Made by a program: the position numbers and the translations under genes
The notes under the pieces: generated by a model
What the model saw: the letters and a program-made list of their open reading frames with translations, nothing else
Databases searched by the model: none
What the model was told of the DNA's origin: nothing
Shown: positions 4,699 to 13,567 of the stretch, one piece after another
Layout of the letters: the number at the start of each line of letters is the position of its first letter
How positions within the stretch are numbered: the stretch's first letter is position 1
Source: Angustibacter sp. Root456
GTDB lineage: Bacteria > Actinomycetota > Actinomycetes > Actinomycetales > Angustibacteraceae
Reading direction: 5' to 3'
DNA length: 64,000 nt
Assembly (NCBI RefSeq): GCF_001426435.1
Contig: NZ_LMER01000015.1
Span: 131,488 to 195,487, forward strand

Positions 4699-5103
4699 TC
4701 AGACGCGGCGGCGCTTGGGGGGGCGGACGCCGTTGTGCGGCACCGGGGTGACGTCCGAGATCGAGCCCACCTCGAGGCCGGTGGCCGTGAGGGAGCGGAT
4801 GGCCGTCTCGCGCCCGGAGCCCGGGCCCTTGACGAACACGTCGACCTTGCGCATGCCGTGCTCCATCGCGCGGCGCGCAGCGGCCTCAGCGGCCATCTGC
4901 GCCGCGAACGGCGTCGACTTGCGCGAGCCCTTGAAGCCGACCTGGCCGGCCGAGGCCCACGAGATCACGGCCCCGGTGGGGTCGGTGATCGAGACGATGG
5001 TGTTGTTGAACGTGCTCTTGATGTGAGCGTGCCCGTGGGCGACGTTCTTCTTTTCCTTGCGGCGCACCTTCTTGGCGCCCGCCTGACGGCCCTTAGGAGG
5101 CAT
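4699..5103 (-). CDS. rpsK: 30S ribosomal protein S11
   Basis: Platform protein contacting 16S rRNA and S7 near the E site; 134 aa, normal length. Conserved blocks include [23 protein letters not shown] and [13 protein letters not shown], and the basic tail ends PPKRRRV. The ATG at 5103 follows TAGGAGTAACCAGCAG, which supplies a ribosome-binding site. The gene lies 61 nt after rpsM; that spacer holds a small GC-rich hairpin (5136-5155). Confidence 0.97.
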
Positions 5104-5164
5104 CTGCTGGTTACTCCTACGTTCGAGGGGTGGTCCCGCGCGTGCTCACGCGCGGAAGGGGCTG

Positions 5165-5545
5165 CTACTTGCGGCCGGCCTTCTTCTTGCCGGCCACCGT
5201 GCGCTTGGGCCCCTTGCGGGTGCGCGCGTTGGTCTTGGTGCGCTGGCCGCGCACCGGAAGGCCGCGGCGGTGCCGCAGCCCCTCGTAGCTGCCGATCTCG
5301 ACCTTGCGGCGGATGTCGGCAGCGACCTCGCGACGCAGGTCGCCCTCGAGCTGGTAGCTCGCCTCGAGGTAGTCACGCAGCTTGACGAGGTCCTCGTCGG
5401 ACAGATCGCGCACGCGGACGTCGGGGCTGACCCCGGTGGCCGCGAGCGTCTGCTGGGCGCGGGTGCGCCCGACGCCGAAGATGTACGTGAGCGCGATCTC
5501 GACGCGCTTTTCGCGCGGGAGGTCGACGCCGATCAGACGTGCCAT
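5165..5545 (-). CDS. rpsM: 30S ribosomal protein S13
   Basis: Head protein bridging to the large subunit and touching P-site tRNA; 126 aa. The start is the ATG of [24 protein letters not shown] at 5545; the frame is open for about 100 more codons upstream but those do not resemble any S13. The helix-two-turn-helix segment is followed by [19 protein letters not shown] and a lysine-rich tail (AGKKKAGRK) that reaches the decoding centre. Confidence 0.97.
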
Positions 5546-5633
5546 GTGGCCGTGTCTCCAGATCTTGGTCTGCGGAGGTCTGGTGCAGCATCGGTCCGCA
5601 CTCACTGATCCGCTGGTGAGCTCGTGGTGCGGT

Positions 5634-5654
5634 CCCCGGCCTCCGCGGCCGGGG
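5634..5654 (-). other. hairpin in the 221-nt rpmJ-rpsM spacer
   Basis: CCCCGGCC, five-base loop, GGCCGGGG. The spacer (5546-5766) holds no gene that I can see; this stem is its only clear structure. Confidence 0.45.
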
Positions 5655-5766
5655 GTGGCGTCCGAGGCGCGCGCGAGCTGGCTCGTGCTGGCCTCGGGGT
5701 CGGATGCTGCGGCTGTCGTGTCGTTCGGTCGTGAAGTCCTGCTGGTCGTGCGGTGCGGTGCTCTGA

Positions 5767-5880
5767 TCAGCCCTGGCGCTGCTTGTGGCGCAGGTTCTCG
5801 CAGATCACCATGACCCGTCCGTTGCGGCGGATCACCTTGCACTTGTCGCAGATCTTCTTGACGCTCGGCTTGACCTTCAT
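5767..5880 (-). CDS. rpmJ: 50S ribosomal protein L36
   Basis: A 37-residue protein starting [14 protein letters not shown], too short for many gene finders. Zinc ligands C11, C14, C27 and H32 are all present, so this is the zinc-binding form. It sits between infA and rpsM, the conserved position in actinobacteria and many other bacteria. Known role: stabilises 23S rRNA helices near the peptidyl-transferase side of the large subunit. Confidence 0.96.
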
Positions 5881-5958
5881 CGCCCTGCTGTCTGCTCGTG
5901 GTGGTCGGTGGTCATGGTCGTGCTGGAATGCGGTGGTGCCTGACGTGGTGAAGCGACC

Positions 5959-6180
5959 TCAGCGGTACCGGAAGACGATCCGGCCGCGGGTGAGGTCATA
6001 GGGACTGAGCTCGACGACGACGCGGTCCTCGGGGAGGATCCGGATGTAGTGCTGCCGCATCTTCCCAGAGATGTGCGCCAGCACCTTGTGACCGTTGGTG
6101 AGCTCCACGCGGAACATCGCGTTGGGCAGAGCCTCAACGATCGTGCCCTCGATCTCGATGACGCCGTCCTTCTTCGCCAT
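5959..6180 (-). CDS. infA: translation initiation factor IF-1
   Basis: A single OB-fold S1 domain of 73 aa ([27 protein letters not shown]...[35 protein letters not shown]), full length. It occupies the ribosomal A site during initiation and assists IF-2 and IF-3. It heads the alpha operon here. In many actinobacteria map lies directly upstream; in this genome the six-gene MauA-like operon is inserted between map and infA. Confidence 0.97.
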
Positions 6181-6312
6181 GTCCTCCGCATTCCGTCGGT
6201 GACCGACCCCCGGTGGGCCGGTCGTCGTGGCGCACGTGTGACAGCGTCCTCATGCCGCCAGAACCAGCCGCGGGACGGGGCGAGGACGGAAGTGCTCGTG
6301 AGCCGACACAGC

Positions 6313-6342
6313 AGAATACGTCAGATCGTGCTCGGACCCCAA
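6313..6342 (-). promoter_or_regulatory. candidate promoter of the infA-rpmJ-rpsM operon
   Basis: On the minus strand TTGGGG (6337-6342), 18 nt, TATTCT (6313-6318). The -10 fits well and the -35 poorly. It lies 132 nt upstream of infA, in a 197-nt gap with no gene. Confidence 0.4.
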
Positions 6343-6377
6343 ATGCGGGTCGAGCGGGTCGTGCTCAGCGGGCTCGC

Positions 6378-8096
6378 TCAGGCGGTGAGGAGTCCGCCCT
6401 CGAAGCGCTGGTGCTGGCTGCCGTCGGACGCCACCACGGTGTCCTCGAGCGGGTAACCCCAGCGACCGGACGCGCCACCGTCGGCCGCCCACGCCGTCAG
6501 CACCCGCCCGCGCACGACCCAGGGGGTGTCGCCCGCTGCCCACCACAGCTGGCCGCGCTCGAAGCGCTGGCCGTGGCCGGACCGCACCTCGTCGCTCTGC
6601 GCCCGCACCGGGTAGCCCAGGACGCCGCGCTCACGGTCGAGCGCCAGCCAGCGCCGGTACGCCGGCCCGAACACGTGGGTCGTCGCCGAGCTCGCGGTGT
6701 CGGCCAGCGCGCCGTCCTCGAACAGCTGCAGCCAGGACGAGCCCGACACCTGCAGGTCGGACACCGGGTAGCCGAGCACCCCCTTCTCGCGCCCGAGCGC
6801 GCTCCAGCGCCCGAACTGCCACGCCCACACCACGCAGGTCGTCGAGCTCGGCGTGTCCGCCAGGGCACCGTGCTCGAACAGCTGGAGCCACTTCGAGCCG
6901 TCGACCACCAGGTTCGACACCGGGTAGCCGAGCCCGCCGTGCTCGCCGCCGTGCTTGCGCCACTGCGTGTACTGCCAGCCGGTGACCCGGCAGGTGACCG
7001 AGTGCGGCGTGTCCGCGACGGCGCCGCGCTGGAAGTGCTGGATCCAGTACCCACCCGGGCCCATGACACGCTCGGCCACGGGGTAGCCGAGCTGGCCCGT
7101 CTCGCGTCCCGTCGCCACCCAGGTGCGGTACGAGGCGAGGGACACCGTGTGGGTCGCCGTCTGGGGGCTGTCGGTGATGGCGCCCCCCTCGAACAGCTGG
7201 ATCCACCCCTTGCCGTCCCGCGCGGTGACCATGTCGCTGCTCGGGTAGCGCAGCACGCCCTGCGGGCCGCCCAGCTGGCGGTACCAGGTGATGGCCGTGC
7301 TGCGCACAGCCCGGGCACCAGTGGCTGACGACCAGTAGATGGCACCGTGCTGGTAGGTGACGTAGCGACCCCGGCCGTCGCCGACCGCGCGCTCGGGACC
7401 CGTCGAGACGCCGAGGGGCGACCCCTCACCGCCGAGCGCGACGTACTTGCGCGTGATGGCGCTCCAGCGCGGCAGACAGGGCGCACTGTGCTCGGCTGTC
7501 GCGTTGTCGGTGAGGGACGTCGTGGTGCAGTTGGCCCACTTGTACGGCGCGATGCAGCTGACCACGCGGCACGCCACGCCACCGCTGCAGCGCACGTGCG
7601 TGTTGCACTGGCCGTAGCGGAAGGCGTTGCAGCACACGCGCCGCTGGTCGCAGGTCGCGGACGAACCGCACTTGCAGCCGCAGCTCCAGCAGCCCTTGGA
7701 GCAGATGTTGTCGCCGGAGCAGCCGGACGTGCACTTGGAGCAGCTGGCGTTGCAGTCGACGATGTAGCGGTAGCCGCCGCCGCACCACGAGGAGTCGGCA
7801 GCCTTCCACCACCCTGCGGCGAACGTGCCGGGCGGGCAGCCGTTGACGCCCTTGTTGATCGTGCAGCACATGACCGTGTAGCCCGCGCTGCACGAGGCCG
7901 CCGGACCACACACGGTCGAGGCCGCCGTCTGCGGTGTCAGCACGTAGCCCTTGGGGTCGACGGCGAGCGCCGAGCCCACCACCGCCGTCTGCACGAGGAA
8001 CCCCCGCCGGCTGAACCGGCCCAGGCCGCGGGCGACCCGGTCGACCACCCGGGTGGCGAAGGTCGTGGCCGTGGCGGCCTCGGTCAGCGTGGTCAC
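6378..8096 (-). CDS. Tat-exported cysteine-rich protein, MauA-like domain plus seven LGFP repeats
   Basis: 572 aa. Seen: a twin-arginine signal (FSRRGFLVQTAVVGSALAV, R30-R31); a region (63-207) with 24 cysteines; then seven LGFP-type repeats (for example GVLGYPVSDL...WLQLFEDGALADT) from about 225 to the end. The cysteine region contains GCPPGT followed by WW (96-97) and resembles the methylamine dehydrogenase light chain, where CPPGT precedes the first tryptophan of the TTQ cofactor; a later W187 could match the second. Homology is likely, enzyme activity is not: no heavy chain gene is nearby. LGFP repeats are found in wall-associated actinobacterial proteins. The GTG start has AGGAGG 6 nt upstream and overlaps the previous stop (GTGA). 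Confidence 0.8.
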   Translation of the reverse strand: MTTLTEAATATTFATRVVDRVARGLGRFSRRGFLVQTAVVGSALAVDPKGYVLTPQTAASTVCGPAASCSAGYTVMCCTINKGVNGCPPGTFAAGWWKAADSSWCGGGYRYIVDCNASCSKCTSGCSGDNICSKGCWSCGCKCGSSATCDQRRVCCNAFRYGQCNTHVRCSGGVACRVVSCIAPYKWANCTTTSLTDNATAEHSAPCLPRWSAITRKYVALGGEGSPLGVSTGPERAVGDGRGRYVTYQHGAIYWSSATGARAVRSTAITWYRQLGGPQGVLRYPSSDMVTARDGKGWIQLFEGGAITDSPQTATHTVSLASYRTWVATGRETGQLGYPVAERVMGPGGYWIQHFQRGAVADTPHSVTCRVTGWQYTQWRKHGGEHGGLGYPVSNLVVDGSKWLQLFEHGALADTPSSTTCVVWAWQFGRWSALGREKGVLGYPVSDLQVSGSSWLQLFEDGALADTASSATTHVFGPAYRRWLALDRERGVLGYPVRAQSDEVRSGHGQRFERGQLWWAAGDTPWVVRGRVLTAWAADGGASGRWGYPLEDTVVASDGSQHQRFEGGLLTA

Positions 8097-8578
8097 CTCA
8101 GTCCTCCTTGGCGCAGCAGCGTCTGCTTGCTCGTGATGCGGATGCCCGCCACCAACCGTGCCGCCCGGGGCACGAGCGCCATCCGGCGCGAGTGCGCCCC
8201 GAGCACGACGTACAGGCAGAAGGCGCGTCCGCCCTCGCTGAAGAAGTGCTGCGCCGCGCTCACACCGGGGTACAGGCGCGGCATGCGGTTGGCGCTGAAC
8301 TGCGAGGGTCGCAGCACCGGGCGACCCTGCGGCTCGAACAGCCCCTGGTCGGCGACCTCGGTGCCGAAGTCCATGAGCGAGACGAACACGTCGTCGCTGC
8401 CGAGCAGGTCGATCACGCCCGAGCCGAAGTCGCCGCGCTCGGCCGGCAGGGCGCGGGTGCACGCGTGCAGCACCGGGTGCGTGACCTCCGCCGGATCGTG
8501 CGGCTCGCGCCGCGAGATCCGCGTCTCCCAGCCACCGTCCTGCGCGGCCACGGCCAAGCCGTAACGAGAGTTGCTCAT
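8093..8578 (-). CDS. unknown protein of the MauA-like operon
   Basis: 161 aa, not recognised. It has no signal peptide or membrane segment. It begins MSNSRYGLAVAAQDGGWETRIS and contains DDVFVSLMDFGTEVADQ, a PRLYPGVSAAQHFFSEGGRAFCLYVV block, and two cysteines. It ends at the GTGA overlap with the cysteine-rich protein and starts 12 nt after the membrane protein, so it is co-transcribed and probably translationally coupled. A cytoplasmic chaperone or modifier for the Tat substrate would fit, but that rests only on position. Confidence 0.75.
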   Translation of the reverse strand: MSNSRYGLAVAAQDGGWETRISRREPHDPAEVTHPVLHACTRALPAERGDFGSGVIDLLGSDDVFVSLMDFGTEVADQGLFEPQGRPVLRPSQFSANRMPRLYPGVSAAQHFFSEGGRAFCLYVVLGAHSRRMALVPRAARLVAGIRITSKQTLLRQGGLR

Positions 8579-8590
8579 GTCAGCTCCACC

Positions 8591-9187
8591 TCAGCTCCAG
8601 ACCGTCCCCGCGGCTGCCGCCGCGACCAGCACCAGCGCCCCTCGAGACACGACGTCGACCGGCCGGCCCAGCCGCTCGACGCGCGCGAACACCGCCCGCA
8701 GCTCGCCGGGTGCGTGCACCCGCCGCACGGCCAGCACGGGCAGCGCGCGCGCCAGGCCGAACGTCGCTCCGAGCGCGGCTCCGACCGCCGGGGTGCCGGA
8801 CCACGCGGCGAGCGCGAGCATCGCGTAGACGGTCGAGCTCGTGACGATGGTCAGCACCCCCGCCCCCAGCTGCAGTCCGAACCCCAGCCCGTAGACCCAG
8901 CCGCGGTAGCGGGCGAGCCAGGCCTCGTCGACCTGTCGACGCCACGACGGCAAGGCACCACCGCGCGCCCGGACGTCGAGGCCGAGGCCCACCAGCAAGA
9001 GCAGCACCACGACAGCCGCCGCCGGCCCCGACGCGCGCCACGCCGCCGGCAGCAGGCCCCCCAGCGCCGCGCTCACCGCCCCCACGGCGAGGCCCCCGAC
9101 GGCGGAGCCGACGAGGTACGCCGACACAGTGAGTCCCCAGCGGGCGCGACGGGCCCGCTCACCGAGCGGGCTGATGCTCGAGAGCAT
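8591..9187 (-). CDS. polytopic membrane protein of the MauA-like operon
   Basis: 198 aa with about five hydrophobic segments (roughly 17-45, 52-70, 95-130, 138-152, 180-197) and Gly/Ala-rich helices. I cannot name the family. In classical mau operons the membrane partners are MauE and MauF; this protein could play the MauF-like part in moving electrons for disulfide formation, but it has no cysteines, so a direct thiol-transfer role is unlikely. Start ATG at 9187, 9 nt after the tiny upstream frame; the ribosome-binding site (GAGGCGA) is weak, consistent with translational coupling. Confidence 0.72.
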   Translation of the reverse strand: MLSSISPLGERARRARWGLTVSAYLVGSAVGGLAVGAVSAALGGLLPAAWRASGPAAAVVVLLLLVGLGLDVRARGGALPSWRRQVDEAWLARYRGWVYGLGFGLQLGAGVLTIVTSSTVYAMLALAAWSGTPAVGAALGATFGLARALPVLAVRRVHAPGELRAVFARVERLGRPVDVVSRGALVLVAAAAAGTVWS

Positions 9188-9196
9188 CGACTCGCC

Positions 9197-9295
9197 TCAA
9201 GGTGACCAGGTCGAGCGCACCGCCGCGACCACCGCGAGCGGCAGGCCGACGACGAGCGCGACCGTCACGGGAGTCCAGGCGGCCACGGTCGTCAC
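9197..9295 (-). CDS. possible 32-residue single-pass membrane peptide
   Basis: A GTG at 9295 overlaps the stop of the MauD-like gene (GTGA) and opens a 32-codon frame that stops 9 nt before the next gene. The product is VTTVAAWTPV, then TVALVVGLPLAVVAAV, then RSTWSP: one hydrophobic helix with short polar ends. The overlap style matches the rest of this operon. It is too short for codon statistics, so it could also be a coupling leader for the downstream gene. Confidence 0.45.
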   Translation of the reverse strand: MTTVAAWTPVTVALVVGLPLAVVAAVRSTWSP

Positions 9296-10101
9296 CGGCT
9301 CGCGGTCTCGTCGTCCGGGTTCTCGTACAGGCTGGTGTGACCAGGCGTGATACCGGCGCTGAGCAGCTCGCGGTCGACGCGCGCGACGTCCGCGTAGTCG
9401 TCCATCGGCCCGAGAGGGCTCTGGTGCCCGGGTGCGCCGGTGAGGGCTCCCGGCCCGGTGCGCCCGGCGCGCCGTCGCGCCTGCGCGGCGTCGCCGACGG
9501 CCTGGCGCATGAGGTCGCGCACCTGGGCCCAGGTCGTCGACGAGCCCTCGCCGGTGATGGTGCCGTCCTCGACGTACACGAAGTAGGGCGAGCCGGGCAC
9601 GGCGTAGTCGCTCCAGGCCGCCGAGGACTGCACGACCTCCAGGCCGGGGCCGGCGAGCTCGCGCAGGCGGGTGACGCTCTCGTCGTGCGGGTCCTTGGCG
9701 ACGACGACGAGCCGACCGTCCCCCGGCACGTCACGGACGCCCGTCGACAGCTCGTCCCAGAAGGTCTGGCACACGCTGCAGCCGCTCGACAGGAAGGCCA
9801 GCAGGGTGCGCCGGCCGGACCCCTGCACCGGGATCGTCACCTCCTCGCCGGCCAGCGTGGTGCCGACCACCGCGTGACCCTGCACCGTGGCCGGCCGCGT
9901 GGCCGGGACGACGCCGGACTCGATGTCGACCCGCACCGGGTTGGCCGCCGACGGCGGGTCACCCGCGTCCTTCTCCAGCTCCAGACCGGCACCGAGCTCG
10001 TGCAGGGCACGCAGGATCAGCGCGTGGCTGCGCAGCAGGCCCAGCACGAGCAGCGCGAGCACGGCGATGGCGACACCTTCGGCGATGACGACGGCGAGCA
10101 C
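9292..10101 (-). CDS. MauD/TlpA-like membrane-anchored thioredoxin-fold protein
   Basis: 269 aa from the GTG at 10101, which has GAAGGGG about 10 nt upstream and lies 5 nt after the mauE-like stop. One N-terminal membrane helix (1-24) anchors an extracytoplasmic thioredoxin-like domain with TLLAFLSSGCSVCQTFW; the CxxC pair is C108/C111. Then follow LVVVAKDPHDESVTRL and VPGSPYFVYVEDGTI with the cis-proline. MauD proteins serve disulfide formation in the MADH light chain. Here the natural client is the 24-cysteine protein encoded downstream. The tail (about 235-269) is hydrophilic. Confidence 0.85.
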   Translation of the reverse strand: MLAVVIAEGVAIAVLALLVLGLLRSHALILRALHELGAGLELEKDAGDPPSAANPVRVDIESGVVPATRPATVQGHAVVGTTLAGEEVTIPVQGSGRRTLLAFLSSGCSVCQTFWDELSTGVRDVPGDGRLVVVAKDPHDESVTRLRELAGPGLEVVQSSAAWSDYAVPGSPYFVYVEDGTITGEGSSTTWAQVRDLMRQAVGDAAQARRRAGRTGPGALTGAPGHQSPLGPMDDYADVARVDRELLSAGITPGHTSLYENPDDETASR

Positions 10102-10106
10102 GGGCT

Positions 10107-10652
10107 TCAGCCCCTTCGGGGTGCGGACGCCGACCGGACGGCCACCGGCGTGACGGTCGGCAGGACGGCGAGGGCGAGGTAGGCCAGGGCCGCGACGAGG
10201 GCCGCGAACCCGATGAGCGTGGCGAAGGTGACCGGCTGCCGCACCGCCGTCGACCACACCGAGTCCGGCGGCGCCCAGGCCATCGCCACGCCGGACGCCG
10301 CGAGCATCGCGGTGACGGCCAGGTGGCTCCGGGTGGGTGGGGTGTCCGGACGCCCGAAGCACCCGCAGGAGGCCAGGACTCCCCCGCGGCTCAGGGCGAG
10401 GGCGACGAACGCGGTGAACACCAGGTAGGCGGCGGCCACGAGCGCCCCGCTGACCCGACCCGGCGCGAGGAGGGCCCCGCCACCGACGACGACCTCCGCC
10501 GCCGCCAGCAGGCGCCCCAGCCCTGGGGGGGACGGCAGGCCCACCGAGCGCAGCGCGAGCACGAGGGACGACGGGTCACCGAGCTTCGGTAGGCCCGCCA
10601 GCACGAGCAGGGCCGCCGCCGCCAGGAACGGCCCGAGCGCGAGGTTCCCCAT
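10107..10652 (-). CDS. mauE: MauE-like (DoxX-related) redox membrane protein
   Basis: 181 aa with four to five membrane helices. The SCGCFGR motif (C96, C98) is characteristic of MauE/DoxX-type redox-associated membrane proteins. In methylotrophs MauE works with MauD in the maturation of the cysteine-rich light chain. The gene heads this six-gene operon, 78 nt downstream of map. A TAGCGT box 8 nt before the ATG suggests a leaderless promoter. The symbol is given by similarity; nothing here implies methylamine use. Confidence 0.82.
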   Translation of the reverse strand: MGNLALGPFLAAAALLVLAGLPKLGDPSSLVLALRSVGLPSPPGLGRLLAAAEVVVGGGALLAPGRVSGALVAAAYLVFTAFVALALSRGGVLASCGCFGRPDTPPTRSHLAVTAMLAASGVAMAWAPPDSVWSTAVRQPVTFATLIGFAALVAALAYLALAVLPTVTPVAVRSASAPRRG

Positions 10653-10660
10653 GCGGCTGG

Positions 10661-10666
10661 ACGCTA
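10661..10666 (-). promoter_or_regulatory. candidate -10 box for the mauE-like operon
   Basis: TAGCGT on the minus strand, 8 nt before the ATG of the mauE-like gene. The distance fits a leaderless transcript. No clear -35 is present. Confidence 0.35.
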
Positions 10667-10730
10667 CACGCCGAACTGTCCCGAAGGGTGGGTTCGCCGG
10701 GACGAGATGGTGACGCGGTGCGCTGCGGAC

Positions 10731-11582
10731 TCAGCCCAGCGGCGCGAACGGCGCACCGAGCTCAGCGAGCTTGGCCGCCCCACCGTCGAGGGCCGTGAGC
10801 ACCCACAGTCCCTCCTCGCCCACCGCGACGGTGTGCTCGAAGTGGGCGGCCCGAGAGCCGTCGACGCTGACGACGGTCCAGTCGTCGGCGAGCACGCGCG
10901 TCTGGGCGCTGCCGCGCGTGAGCATCGGCTCGATCGCCACGACGAGCCCGGACTTGACCCGCACGCCCTTGTCGCGCACGCGGTAGTTGGGCACCTGCGG
11001 GTCCTGGTGCATCTCGGTGCCGATGCCGTGGCCGACGTACTCCTCGACGATGCCGTACGGCTGCCCGGTGCGCCGGCTGCTGGCGGCAACGTGGTCCTCG
11101 ACGGCCGCTCCCACGGCGTGCAGCCGCTCACCGACGGCGAGCGCGGCGATCCCGCGCCACATCGCCTCCTCGGTCACGGCGACGAGCTCGACGTCGTCCG
11201 GCCGAGCGTGTCCCTGCCCGGCCCCGACGATCACCGTGACCGCGGCGTCGCCGTGCCAGCCGTCGACGATCGCACCGCAGTCGATCGACACGACGTCGCC
11301 GTCGGCGAGCACCCGGTCGCCGGGCAGGCCGTGCACGACCTCGTCGTTCACCGAGATGCAGACGGTGCCGCTGAAGGGCGGATGGCCGTAACCGAGGAAG
11401 CTCGGCACCGCCCCCGCCCCGCGGATGCGCTGCTCGGCGAGGTCGTTGAGGTCGCGCGTGGTGCGGCCGGCCACCGCGGCGGCCCGCAGCATCTCGAGGG
11501 TCTCCCCCACGACCACGCCGGCGCGCCGCATCGCCCGCACCTGGTCGGGCGACTTGTACTGGATCCGGTCACGACCGAGCAT
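10731..11582 (-). CDS. map: type I methionine aminopeptidase
   Basis: Removes the initiator methionine from nascent proteins. 283 aa in the pita-bread fold. Metal ligands sit in SIDCGAIVDGWHGDAAVTV (two aspartates), GHGIGTEMHQDP (histidine), AIEPML (glutamate) and HFEHTV (glutamate); CISVNDEVVHGLP is also diagnostic. The ATG lies 7 nt past the adk stop, giving the common secY-adk-map order. The gene is slightly longer than minimal type I enzymes but has no recognisable extra SH3-binding N-terminal domain. Confidence 0.96.
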   Translation of the reverse strand: MLGRDRIQYKSPDQVRAMRRAGVVVGETLEMLRAAAVAGRTTRDLNDLAEQRIRGAGAVPSFLGYGHPPFSGTVCISVNDEVVHGLPGDRVLADGDVVSIDCGAIVDGWHGDAAVTVIVGAGQGHARPDDVELVAVTEEAMWRGIAALAVGERLHAVGAAVEDHVAASSRRTGQPYGIVEEYVGHGIGTEMHQDPQVPNYRVRDKGVRVKSGLVVAIEPMLTRGSAQTRVLADDWTVVSVDGSRAAHFEHTVAVGEEGLWVLTALDGGAAKLAELGAPFAPLG

Positions 11583-11589
11583 CAGCGGC

Positions 11590-12156
11590 TCAGGCCTGCT
11601 CGATCGCGGACACCAGCCGCTGCGTCACCTCGTCGACCTCGCCGAGGCCGTCGACGGCGACCAGCAGGCCGCGCTCGCGGTAGACCTCCACCAGCGGTGC
11701 GGTCTCGTCGGTGTAGATCTGCTGACGGCGCCGGATGACGTCCTCGGTGTCGTCGCTGCGCCCCTCGGTCTCGGCGCGCTTGAGCAGCCGCTGCACGATC
11801 TCCTCGCGCTCGACGGTGAGCTCGACGACGCGGTCGAGCGCGTGACCGCTGTCGGCGAGCATGGCGTCGAGCTCGGCCACCTGGGCCCGCGTGCGGGGGT
11901 AGCCGTCGAGCAGGAAGCCGCGCTGGGCGTCGTCCTGCGCGAGCCGGTCGCGGACCATCGCGTTGGTGATGTCGTCCGAGACGTAGCCGCCGGAGTCGAG
12001 GATCTCCTTGACCTGCACGCCGAGCGGCGTGCCCTCGGCGATGTTCGACCGGAAGATGTCGCCCGTCGAGACGGCGGGGATGGTGAAGTGGGCGGCCAGG
12101 CGCGCGGCCTGGGTGCCCTTGCCCGCGCCCGGCGGGCCCAGGATGACGAGACGCAT
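11590..12156 (-). CDS. adk: adenylate kinase
   Basis: Interconverts ATP + AMP and 2 ADP. 188 aa, the short form without a zinc-binding LID. P-loop GPPGAGKGT at residues 7-15, STGDIFR (AMP site), and FLLDGYPRTRAQ near 81-92. The start codon overlaps the secY stop by one base (TGATG), so the two genes are translationally coupled. Confidence 0.97.
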   Translation of the reverse strand: MRLVILGPPGAGKGTQAARLAAHFTIPAVSTGDIFRSNIAEGTPLGVQVKEILDSGGYVSDDITNAMVRDRLAQDDAQRGFLLDGYPRTRAQVAELDAMLADSGHALDRVVELTVEREEIVQRLLKRAETEGRSDDTEDVIRRRQQIYTDETAPLVEVYRERGLLVAVDGLGEVDEVTQRLVSAIEQA

Positions 12157-13460
12157 CAGCGAAGGAACCCTTCGTAGTGTCGCTGCTGGAGCTGGGACTC
12201 GATCTGCTTCACCGTCTCCAGGCCCACACCCACGATGATGAGGATCGAGGTGCCGCCGAAGGGGAAGTTGGACTGGCTGGCGCCGACGAGGGCGAACGCC
12301 ACCAGCGGGATCATCGAGATCAGGCCCAGGTACAGGGCACCCGGCAGGGTGATGCGGGTGAGGATGTAGTCGAGGTACTCGGCCGTGGGTCGCCCGGCGC
12401 GGATCCCCGGGATGAAGCCGCCGTACTTCTTCATGTTGTCGGCGATCTCGGTGGGGTCGAAGGTGATCGCCACGTAGAAGTACGTGAAGAACACGATCAG
12501 GACGAAGTAGATCAGCATGTAGAGCGGGTGGTCGCCGCGCACCAGGTAGCGCTCGATCCACACGACCCAGCCTGCGGTCTTGTTGCTCTGGAACTGCGCG
12601 ATGAGCGCCGGCAGGTAGAGCAGCGAGGAGGCGAAGATCACCGGGATGACGCCGGCCTGGTTGACCTTGATCGGGATGTACGTGCTGGTGCCGCCGTACT
12701 GGCGCCGGCCGATCATGCGCTTGGCGTACTGCACCGGCACGCGGCGCTGCGACTGCTCGACGAACACGACGGCCGCGACGATCACCACGCCGACGAGCAG
12801 CACGACGAGGAAGACGTTCCAGCCCTTGGCGGCCTTGATGGCCCACAGCGCCGACGGGAAGCTGGCAGCGATCTGCGTGAAGATCAGCAGCGACATGCCG
12901 TTGCCGATGCCCTTGTCGGTGACCAGCTCGCCGAGCCACATCACCAGGCCGGTGCCGGCGGTCATCGTCGCCACCATGATGAGCACGGTGATGATCGAGT
13001 TGTTCGGCACGAGGTCGGCCGAGCAGCCCGGGAACAGCGGGCTCGGCGTCGCGCGCGCGACCGACACCAGCGTCGTGGACTGCAGGATCGCCAGCCCGAT
13101 CGTGAGGTAGCGGGTGTACTGGGTCAGCTTGGTGGTGCCCTGCTGACCCTCCTTCTTCAGCTCCTCGAAGCGCGGGATGACCACCGTCAGCAGCTGCACG
13201 ATGATGCTCGCCGTGATGTACGGCATGATCCCGAGCGCGAACACCGACAGCTGGAGCAGCGCGCCACCGCTGAACATGTTGACCAGGCCCAGCAGCGAGT
13301 TGTCCTTCGTCGCCGCGATGCACTCGCGCACGGCCGGGTAGGAGATCCCCGGAGTAGGCAGCAGGGAGCCCAGTCGGAACAGCGCGAGGATCGCCAGCGT
13401 GAACAGGATCTTCTTGCGCAGATCGGGCGTGCGAAATGCCCGTGCGAACGCGGTGAGCAC
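12156..13460 (-). CDS. secY: preprotein translocase subunit SecY
   Basis: Pore subunit of the SecYEG channel; 434 aa with ten membrane helices. Conserved features: AFRTPDLRKKILFTLAILALFRLGS at the N-terminus, MPYITASIIVQLL, and the cytoplasmic loop YAKRMIGRRQYGG near the ribosome contact. I chose the GTG at 13460 (VLTAFARAF) with GGAGGAGTT just before it; the frame extends to 13565 but that part is basic, proline-rich and runs through a terminator. Unlike the usual layout it is separated from rplO by 136 nt and two hairpins. Confidence 0.96.
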   Translation of the reverse strand: MLTAFARAFRTPDLRKKILFTLAILALFRLGSLLPTPGISYPAVRECIAATKDNSLLGLVNMFSGGALLQLSVFALGIMPYITASIIVQLLTVVIPRFEELKKEGQQGTTKLTQYTRYLTIGLAILQSTTLVSVARATPSPLFPGCSADLVPNNSIITVLIMVATMTAGTGLVMWLGELVTDKGIGNGMSLLIFTQIAASFPSALWAIKAAKGWNVFLVVLLVGVVIVAAVVFVEQSQRRVPVQYAKRMIGRRQYGGTSTYIPIKVNQAGVIPVIFASSLLYLPALIAQFQSNKTAGWVVWIERYLVRGDHPLYMLIYFVLIVFFTYFYVAITFDPTEIADNMKKYGGFIPGIRAGRPTAEYLDYILTRITLPGALYLGLISMIPLVAFALVGASQSNFPFGGTSILIIVGVGLETVKQIESQLQQRHYEGFLR

Positions 13461-13524
13461 AACTCCTCCAGTTCCACCGCGGTGGCGGCGTCGACGGCCC
13501 GTCACGACGGACCTGGGGACGATA

Positions 13525-13562
13525 ACACCCCGGACCCCGGGTGCTGCGGGGGTCCGGGGTGT
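13525..13562 (-). terminator. perfect 14-bp hairpin between rplO and secY
   Basis: Arms 13525-13538 and 13549-13562 (ACACCCCGGACCCC and complement) with a 10-nt loop, followed on the minus strand by TTAT. It likely ends or attenuates the spc operon before secY. Confidence 0.8.
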
Positions 13563-13567
13563 CATCC

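Follow-up and report, generated by a model that had tools for sequence, protein, structure and literature searches.

A probable selenocysteine-containing, CcdA/DsbD-like membrane protein encoded across an in-frame UGA and widespread in actinobacteria

Genes at the locus

The window, a stretch of 64,000 nucleotides from Angustibacter sp. Root456 (contig NZ_LMER01000015.1; positions are counted from its first letter), contains a five-gene cassette on the reverse strand. The cassette sits among ribosomal and translation genes (4699-13565), which from their translations we take to be rpsK, rpsM, rpmJ and infA on one side and map, adk and secY on the other. It comprises a MauE-like (DoxX-type) membrane gene (10107-10652; PF07291, E 9.6e-16, above cut-off), a MauD-like gene, the gene under study (8591-9295), a 161-aa gene (8093-8578), for which no Pfam or NCBIfam family scored above cut-off, and a gene (6378-8096) encoding an exported Cys-rich protein with a twin-arginine signal and LGFP repeats (PF08310, E 1.5e-48). 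The MauD-like gene (9292-10110) encodes a thioredoxin-fold protein; its start codon is uncertain and its profile matches are weak (TIGR02661, E 0.0011, far under cut-off; PF13098, E 0.029). A CxxC motif (SSGCSVCQTFW) was found in this protein and in all 32 related rows, two of which represent a single locus. All five genes were present in 22 of the 28 named loci, the 161-aa gene in 25; gene order varied among loci, and several of the six incomplete loci were cut by contig ends.

In the exported protein, the RR pair and many cysteines were invariant across 22 rows, with CPPGS.AAGWWK, RYIVDC and FRYGQC as conserved motifs, and the Cys-rich part was covered by no Pfam domain. A MauA identity was considered and rejected: PF02975, the family of the methylamine dehydrogenase light chain (MauA), gave no match at E<=1 in 22 members, and the profile of the protein found no PDB match at E<=10, so that the profiles lend no support to the label 'MauA-like' that a first-pass annotation had attached to the operon. 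The resemblance to the MauE/MauD/MauA system of methylamine utilisation lies in the PF07291 match, the CxxC-bearing MauD-like protein and the presence of an exported Cys-rich protein; the differences are the MauD score far under cut-off and the missing PF02975 match. To our knowledge, the gene at 8591-9295 does not correspond to any named mau gene.

A short frame that continues through a UGA codon

The upstream end of this gene appears as a GTG-started frame of 32 codons at 9197-9295 of the reverse strand (translation VTTVAAWTPVTVALVVGLPLAVVAAVRSTWSP*), whose GTG (9293-9295) overlaps the MauD-like stop (9292-9294) as GTGA and which stops 9 nt short of the ATG (9185-9187) that opens a 198-aa frame. 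The first-pass annotation had described exactly this overlap and a single hydrophobic helix, and had expected ordinary ORF calling to overlook the frame; all of this was borne out. The G+C content by codon position was 0.70/0.64/0.88, the third-position value being close to that of the neighbouring genes (0.91-0.95).

A search with the 198-aa protein against 396 genomes of the order matched 27 genomes, 20 of them as close orthologs. The short frame was open in all 20. Codon-level selection, which the first-pass annotation had proposed to look for, was seen in this frame only: over 136 pairs from 17 sequences its last 20 codons showed a pN/pS of 0.25, and the two alternative frames gave 1.70 and 4.42. 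In each of the 20 orthologs the upstream frame ended in ...W-S-P-TGA and was followed in frame by GGN GAG TCG ATG. The codons after the TGA, kept in the same frame and at constant distance, also evolved as coding sequence, the three-codon linker giving a pN of 0.000 and a pS of 0.208. Loss of the frame, or accumulation of stops in it, had been named as grounds for abandoning the prediction; the frame was conserved, and the 'stop' itself proved to be a conserved codon, probably that of the active site.

A second search, using the full-length alignment A2 against a 396-genome draw from the phylum, matched 52 genomes. The site was read in all 41 UGA-form genomes, whose matches cross one TGA; six genomes had TGC, encoding cysteine, in its place (G526, G767, G759, G449, G750 and G471), three were distant relatives with an in-frame TGA, and two were unreadable (G580 because it starts at a contig end, G656 because of a run of N). 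A single-sequence search of genome contigs found no relative, and an alignment-based scan used instead gave 28 loci. The order set, phylum draw and named loci yielded 73 distinct sites (67 TGA, 6 TGC), to which 10 further TGA sites were added. Across these 83 sites the codon was TGA in 77 and TGC in six, and never TAA or TAG; the motif P-[U/C]-G-x-S was found in all 83 (73 by script, 10 by eye), the window reading SP-U-GESM. The Cys forms sit in two separate places on a tree of 61 rows (rows below 200 aa and repeated loci were left out), which implies at least two Sec/Cys changes, in either direction.

Since in the relatives read this frame extends across the TGA or TGC and joins the following one, the 32-codon frame is helix 1 of the downstream protein, and the 32-codon and 198-codon frames are one gene. 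The whole gene (8591-9295, reverse strand) has a GTG start and a terminal TGA stop at 8591-8593 and encodes a CcdA/DsbD-like membrane protein of 234 residues, as judged from the joined translation, alignments A2 and A5, and an AlphaFold model; A5 excludes L086, a fused long frame, and the partial L075 and L093. Its N-terminal part (9200-9295), the short frame minus its stop, forms transmembrane helix 1, for which the pN/pS ratio and a modelled helix at residues 9-30 are the evidence. The TGA at 9197-9199 most likely encodes Sec33, as suggested by the TGA/TGC exchange in relatives and by its alignment with the TM1 cysteine of CcdA, and the ATG at 9185-9187, the apparent start of the 198-aa frame, becomes Met37 within the protein. 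This codon was ATG in 71 of the 73 distinct sites and CTG in two.

The near-invariance of the ATG, together with a GAGG before it that could serve as a ribosome site, would also fit two genes, namely a 32-codon membrane peptide ending at the UGA and a 198-aa protein restarting at the ATG through termination-reinitiation coupling. The six relatives with an in-frame TGC keep the ATG as well, however; TAA and TAG do not occur at the site, the linker shows coding-like evolution, the GAG is not conserved beyond the main clade, and the gene co-occurs with the Sec machinery (see below), all of which makes such an arrangement highly improbable. The TGC homologs, the lack of TAA or TAG in 83 sites and the coding-like linker likewise tell against the first-pass proposals of a separate small protein and of a coupling leader. 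Its further suggestion of a subunit of a redox complex survives in part: the helix appears to belong to a membrane redox system, but as a portion of a larger protein and not as an independent one.

Tandem hairpins downstream of the UGA

The reverse strand directly downstream of the UGA can form two hairpins, which together constitute a SECIS candidate. Hairpin 1 (9173-9188) has the sequence GATGCT-CTCG-AGCATC, and its six pairs were all formed in 57 of 67 UGA sites and in none of the six Cys sites. Hairpin 2 (9153-9171) is an eight-pair stem with the apex GGT, supported by covariation on alignment A3. The general form is a hairpin GATGCT-N4-AGCATC followed by an eight-pair stem with a GG-rich apex.

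Alignment A3 contains 49 rows, 44 of them distinct; a 17-row clade with a different hairpin-2 register (alignment A4) was left out, as was the divergent L024, in which the hairpins pair poorly (4/6 and 0/8). In A3, 98.7% of cells were paired versus 35-53% in slid controls, and changes on both sides were seen at 6 of 14 pairs, amounting to 36 both-sided cells (shuffles, 7.8). Not one shuffle out of 500 matched A3 in paired percentage, both-sided cells, pair types or covariation score, and 11 of the 500 reached its number of pairs; RNAalifold returned the identical 14 pairs. The alternative stem of A4 had 5/5 pairs in 15 of 17 rows and 4/5 in the other two. At the 10 TGA sites outside A3, hairpin 1 had 5/6 or 6/6 pairs and hairpin 2 had 8/8 in two, 7/8 in six, 6/8 in one and 5/8 in one. 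A divergent UGA clade kept both stems with other bases (GATGGT...ACCATC and CCCCCGTG...CACGGGGG). In the Cys forms both stems were broken, with 2-5 of 6 pairs in hairpin 1 and 2-5 of 8 in hairpin 2. A GGT in the apex region was found at 52 of 67 UGA sites, but also at two of the six Cys sites.

A folding test with synonymous codons was weakly positive (mean z -1.13 for 67 UGA sites, 17 of them at p<0.05; mean z -0.37 for six Cys sites, none at that level), and the RNA claim consequently rests on covariation. On that basis the tandem hairpins are a covarying, SECIS-like structure kept by compensatory changes, and a candidate for the SECIS role. One pair of hairpin 2 is of further interest: alignment columns 29/47 were C-G in 27, G-C in 13 and unpaired in 4 of 44 rows, tracking Thr...Gly or Ser...Ala in the protein. 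The exchange between ISPLGERA and ITPLGERG thus follows a single base pair in most rows, a case of RNA structure shaping protein sequence.

Bacterial SECIS elements of the E. coli fdhF type are stem-loops lying directly 3' of the UGA within the coding region. The present structure shares the in-coding position 3' of the UGA and a GG-rich apex, as in FdhA of the same genome; it differs in having two tandem hairpins, and the apex of hairpin 2 lies 33 nt beyond the UGA, versus 18 nt for the hairpin (loop GGTCT) of the FdhA gene.

Co-occurrence with the selenocysteine machinery

The genome containing the window encodes, on one contig, SelA (408.7 bits), SelB (247.6 bits), SelD (396.8 bits) and tRNA-Sec (69.8 bits; ARAGORN type SeC, anticodon tca). 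It also has two FdhA genes outside the window, each with one in-frame TGA (C4:36755-39745 and C18:109551-112631), the former lying among sel genes on the contig that holds the Sec machinery and being the one whose UGA precedes the GGTCT hairpin.

In the order set, tRNA-Sec scored at least 67.8 bits in 20 of 20 genomes holding the gene versus 13 of 32 other chosen genomes (p 5e-6, kinship ignored), and one of these 13 (G133) carries a divergent TGA-bearing relative. In the phylum draw, tRNA-Sec was found at E<=1e-10 in 37 of 41 UGA-form genomes versus 166 of 355 others (p 3e-8, kinship ignored), the 166 including the three distant relatives with an in-frame TGA (G434, G492 and G648). The four UGA-form genomes short of this threshold match SelA (G445, 502.7 bits; G540, 482.7; G411, 515.2; G591, 48.4), the last match, which is below cut-off, coming from a fragment where a contig ends. 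A tRNA-Sec match of 56.5 bits was seen in G445 as well. When the six Cys-form genomes were searched for SelA and SelD, none had a SelA match and none had SelD over cut-off. Their best tRNA-Sec match was 50.9 bits; some matches exceed the Rfam gathering score of 47 and lie within the background range, and a second match of the same kind is present in the genome of the window.

The machinery is also found close to the gene. SelA, SelB or SelD lay within 5 kb of it in 8 of 28 named loci (L067, L069, L070, L072, L074, L077, L083 and L089). Two pairs of SelB and tRNA-Sec were found in each of G245 and G314, one by FdhA and the other by the operon described here. In G107 and G163, neither of which had an FdhA match at E<=1e-30, the sole strong tRNA-Sec is found close to this operon together with SelB. 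Such a match was absent from 22 of 59 UGA-form genomes, many of which are drafts. At two loci (L106, G245 C7:370000-386000; L107, G107 C1:2261000-2277000), SelA, SelB, tRNA-Sec and SelD form a cluster a few kb from the operon.

Conserved RNA structure 3' of a stop codon also occurs at read-through sites. The hairpins could by this token be a read-through signal, with a standard Trp, Arg or Cys tRNA reading the UGA to give a selenium-free product. Against this, the alternative residue at the site is Cys, the UGA form tracks tRNA-Sec and SelA, and sel genes adjoin the operon, so that we regard ordinary read-through as scarcely credible. From the comparison of sequences, the UGA at 9197-9199 almost certainly encodes selenocysteine.

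Relationship of the protein to CcdA and DsbD

An AlphaFold model of the joined protein, with Sec modelled as Cys and 26 rows in the alignment, gave a pLDDT of 88.9 and a pTM of 0.86, and showed helix 1 broken at S31 beside P32-Sec33. CcdA proteins carry a redox cysteine in a helix-1 'SPC' motif, and the read-through TGA falls on that cysteine. A profile comparison with 15 CcdA-type proteins spanned 173 columns with an hhalign probability of 67 and placed Sec33 on the helix-1 (TM1) cysteine. Family scores were weak, DsbD_2 being matched in 14 and DsbD_TM in 7 of 20 members (E<=0.1); the 198-aa protein of the window likewise resembles DsbD_2 weakly. In the structural comparison CcdA 5vkv ranked third in Foldseek, with a probability of 0.38 and an E-value of 0.81; Foldseek against PDB and BFVD, together with VIA-align, gave no clear family. 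In a PDB sequence search with the family profile the best rows had E 0.14 or worse and were taken as chance.

Like the CcdA/DsbD transmembrane domain (PF02683, PF13386), this is a multi-helix membrane protein with S-P-[C/U] in helix 1 at the same distance from the N-terminus; it differs in having Sec for the first cysteine and in lacking the second redox cysteine, which in CcdA and DsbD belongs to the second half. The second cysteine of CcdA is invariant in the 15 reference rows, and the family alignment contains no second conserved cysteine, hence the protein cannot by itself be a classical two-Cys CcdA. Here Sec would occupy the redox position in helix 1 of a membrane protein resembling CcdA.

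Proposed function and relationship to known selenoproteins

The explanation that we favour, with a probability of roughly 85%, is that of one gene whose UGA is decoded as Sec by way of the tandem hairpins, giving a CcdA/DsbD-like membrane protein, for which a role in a thiol relay is proposed. The comparison of genomes shows the Sec/Cys exchange, the conservation of the RNA structure, the co-occurrence with the Sec machinery and, in the main clade, the conservation of the operon. In the cell, SelB and tRNA-Sec would decode the UGA as selenocysteine, directed by the hairpins directly downstream. The membrane protein would then have Sec33 as its sole conserved redox residue, in place of the helix-1 'SPC' cysteine, and Sec33 may exchange electrons with the CxxC of its presumed partner, the MauD-like protein, through a selenenylsulfide, MauE being a possible further membrane component. 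In the direction of electron flow that we infer, the relay would determine the disulfide state of its likeliest client, the exported Cys-rich protein encoded in the operon.

The thiol-relay role is somewhat favoured over other tasks for the Sec33 protein. The same selenoprotein might instead use its lone Sec to bind or move soft metal or chalcogen species, with no disulfide electrons involved. Such a function would suit a single conserved chalcogen residue and the absence of the cassette around the divergent clade, and it has parallels in the membrane selenoproteins YeeE/YedE and SO_0444, given as transporters in the table of PMC13188914. It fits less well with the main clade, where the gene is paired with MauE-like, CxxC MauD-like and Cys-rich exported genes (all five cassette members in 22 of 28 loci), and with the alignment of helix 1 to CcdA, and we consider it unlikely, though well short of negligible. 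As to the relay, one Cys-form locus (L099) holds all five cassette genes; the cassette was not found in the other five Cys-form loci or in the divergent UGA clade, where at most a MauD-like or MauE-like match was seen. The link to one client is weakened by this, and in the divergent clade partner and client may differ.

TsoB, a rhodanese/DsbD fusion-like selenoprotein with two Sec residues (UxxxxU; NF045694), is the nearest entry in a 2026 table of 119 selenoprotein families, and the present family is absent from that table (PMC13188914). Both proteins place Sec in a DsbD-related membrane protein; TsoB has the rhodanese fusion and two Sec, and the window protein has one Sec and no rhodanese. 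An NCBIfam scan of the window protein gave no family above cut-off and no match to NF045694. No such selenoprotein was found in those parts of the literature that were searched (including PMC12013277 and PMC9312934), preprints and most subscription papers being outside their scope. The family looks like a selenoprotein family that is undescribed in the literature found and widespread in actinobacteria. We see an even chance for the fuller proposal, that it is an undescribed one-chalcogen, Sec-containing, CcdA-like redox family with a tandem-hairpin recoding signal, that it would drive the disulfide or cofactor maturation of a novel exported, Cys-rich redox protein, and that it matters enough for some actinobacteria to maintain a second set of Sec-insertion genes next to its operon.

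In ordinary annotation such a gene would come out as two pieces, a peptide that goes unnoticed and a protein cut short. The family offers a definite use for selenium in actinobacteria with the Sec machinery and no Sec formate dehydrogenase; in lineages of this kind (for example, G107 and G163) it may be what chiefly maintains the Sec trait. According to PMC5029168, a few Sec-using organisms seem to have no known selenoprotein gene, mainly because their genome sequences are incomplete, and the family could account for part of this.

The three distant relatives in the phylum draw (G434, G492 and G648; loci L158, L159 and L160) carry their in-frame TGA immediately 5' of the region that was matched, in the contexts SG-U-GLSM, TG-U-GTSM and LP-U-GPNA. 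Their genomes have tRNA-Sec, and they are possibly further Sec subfamilies.
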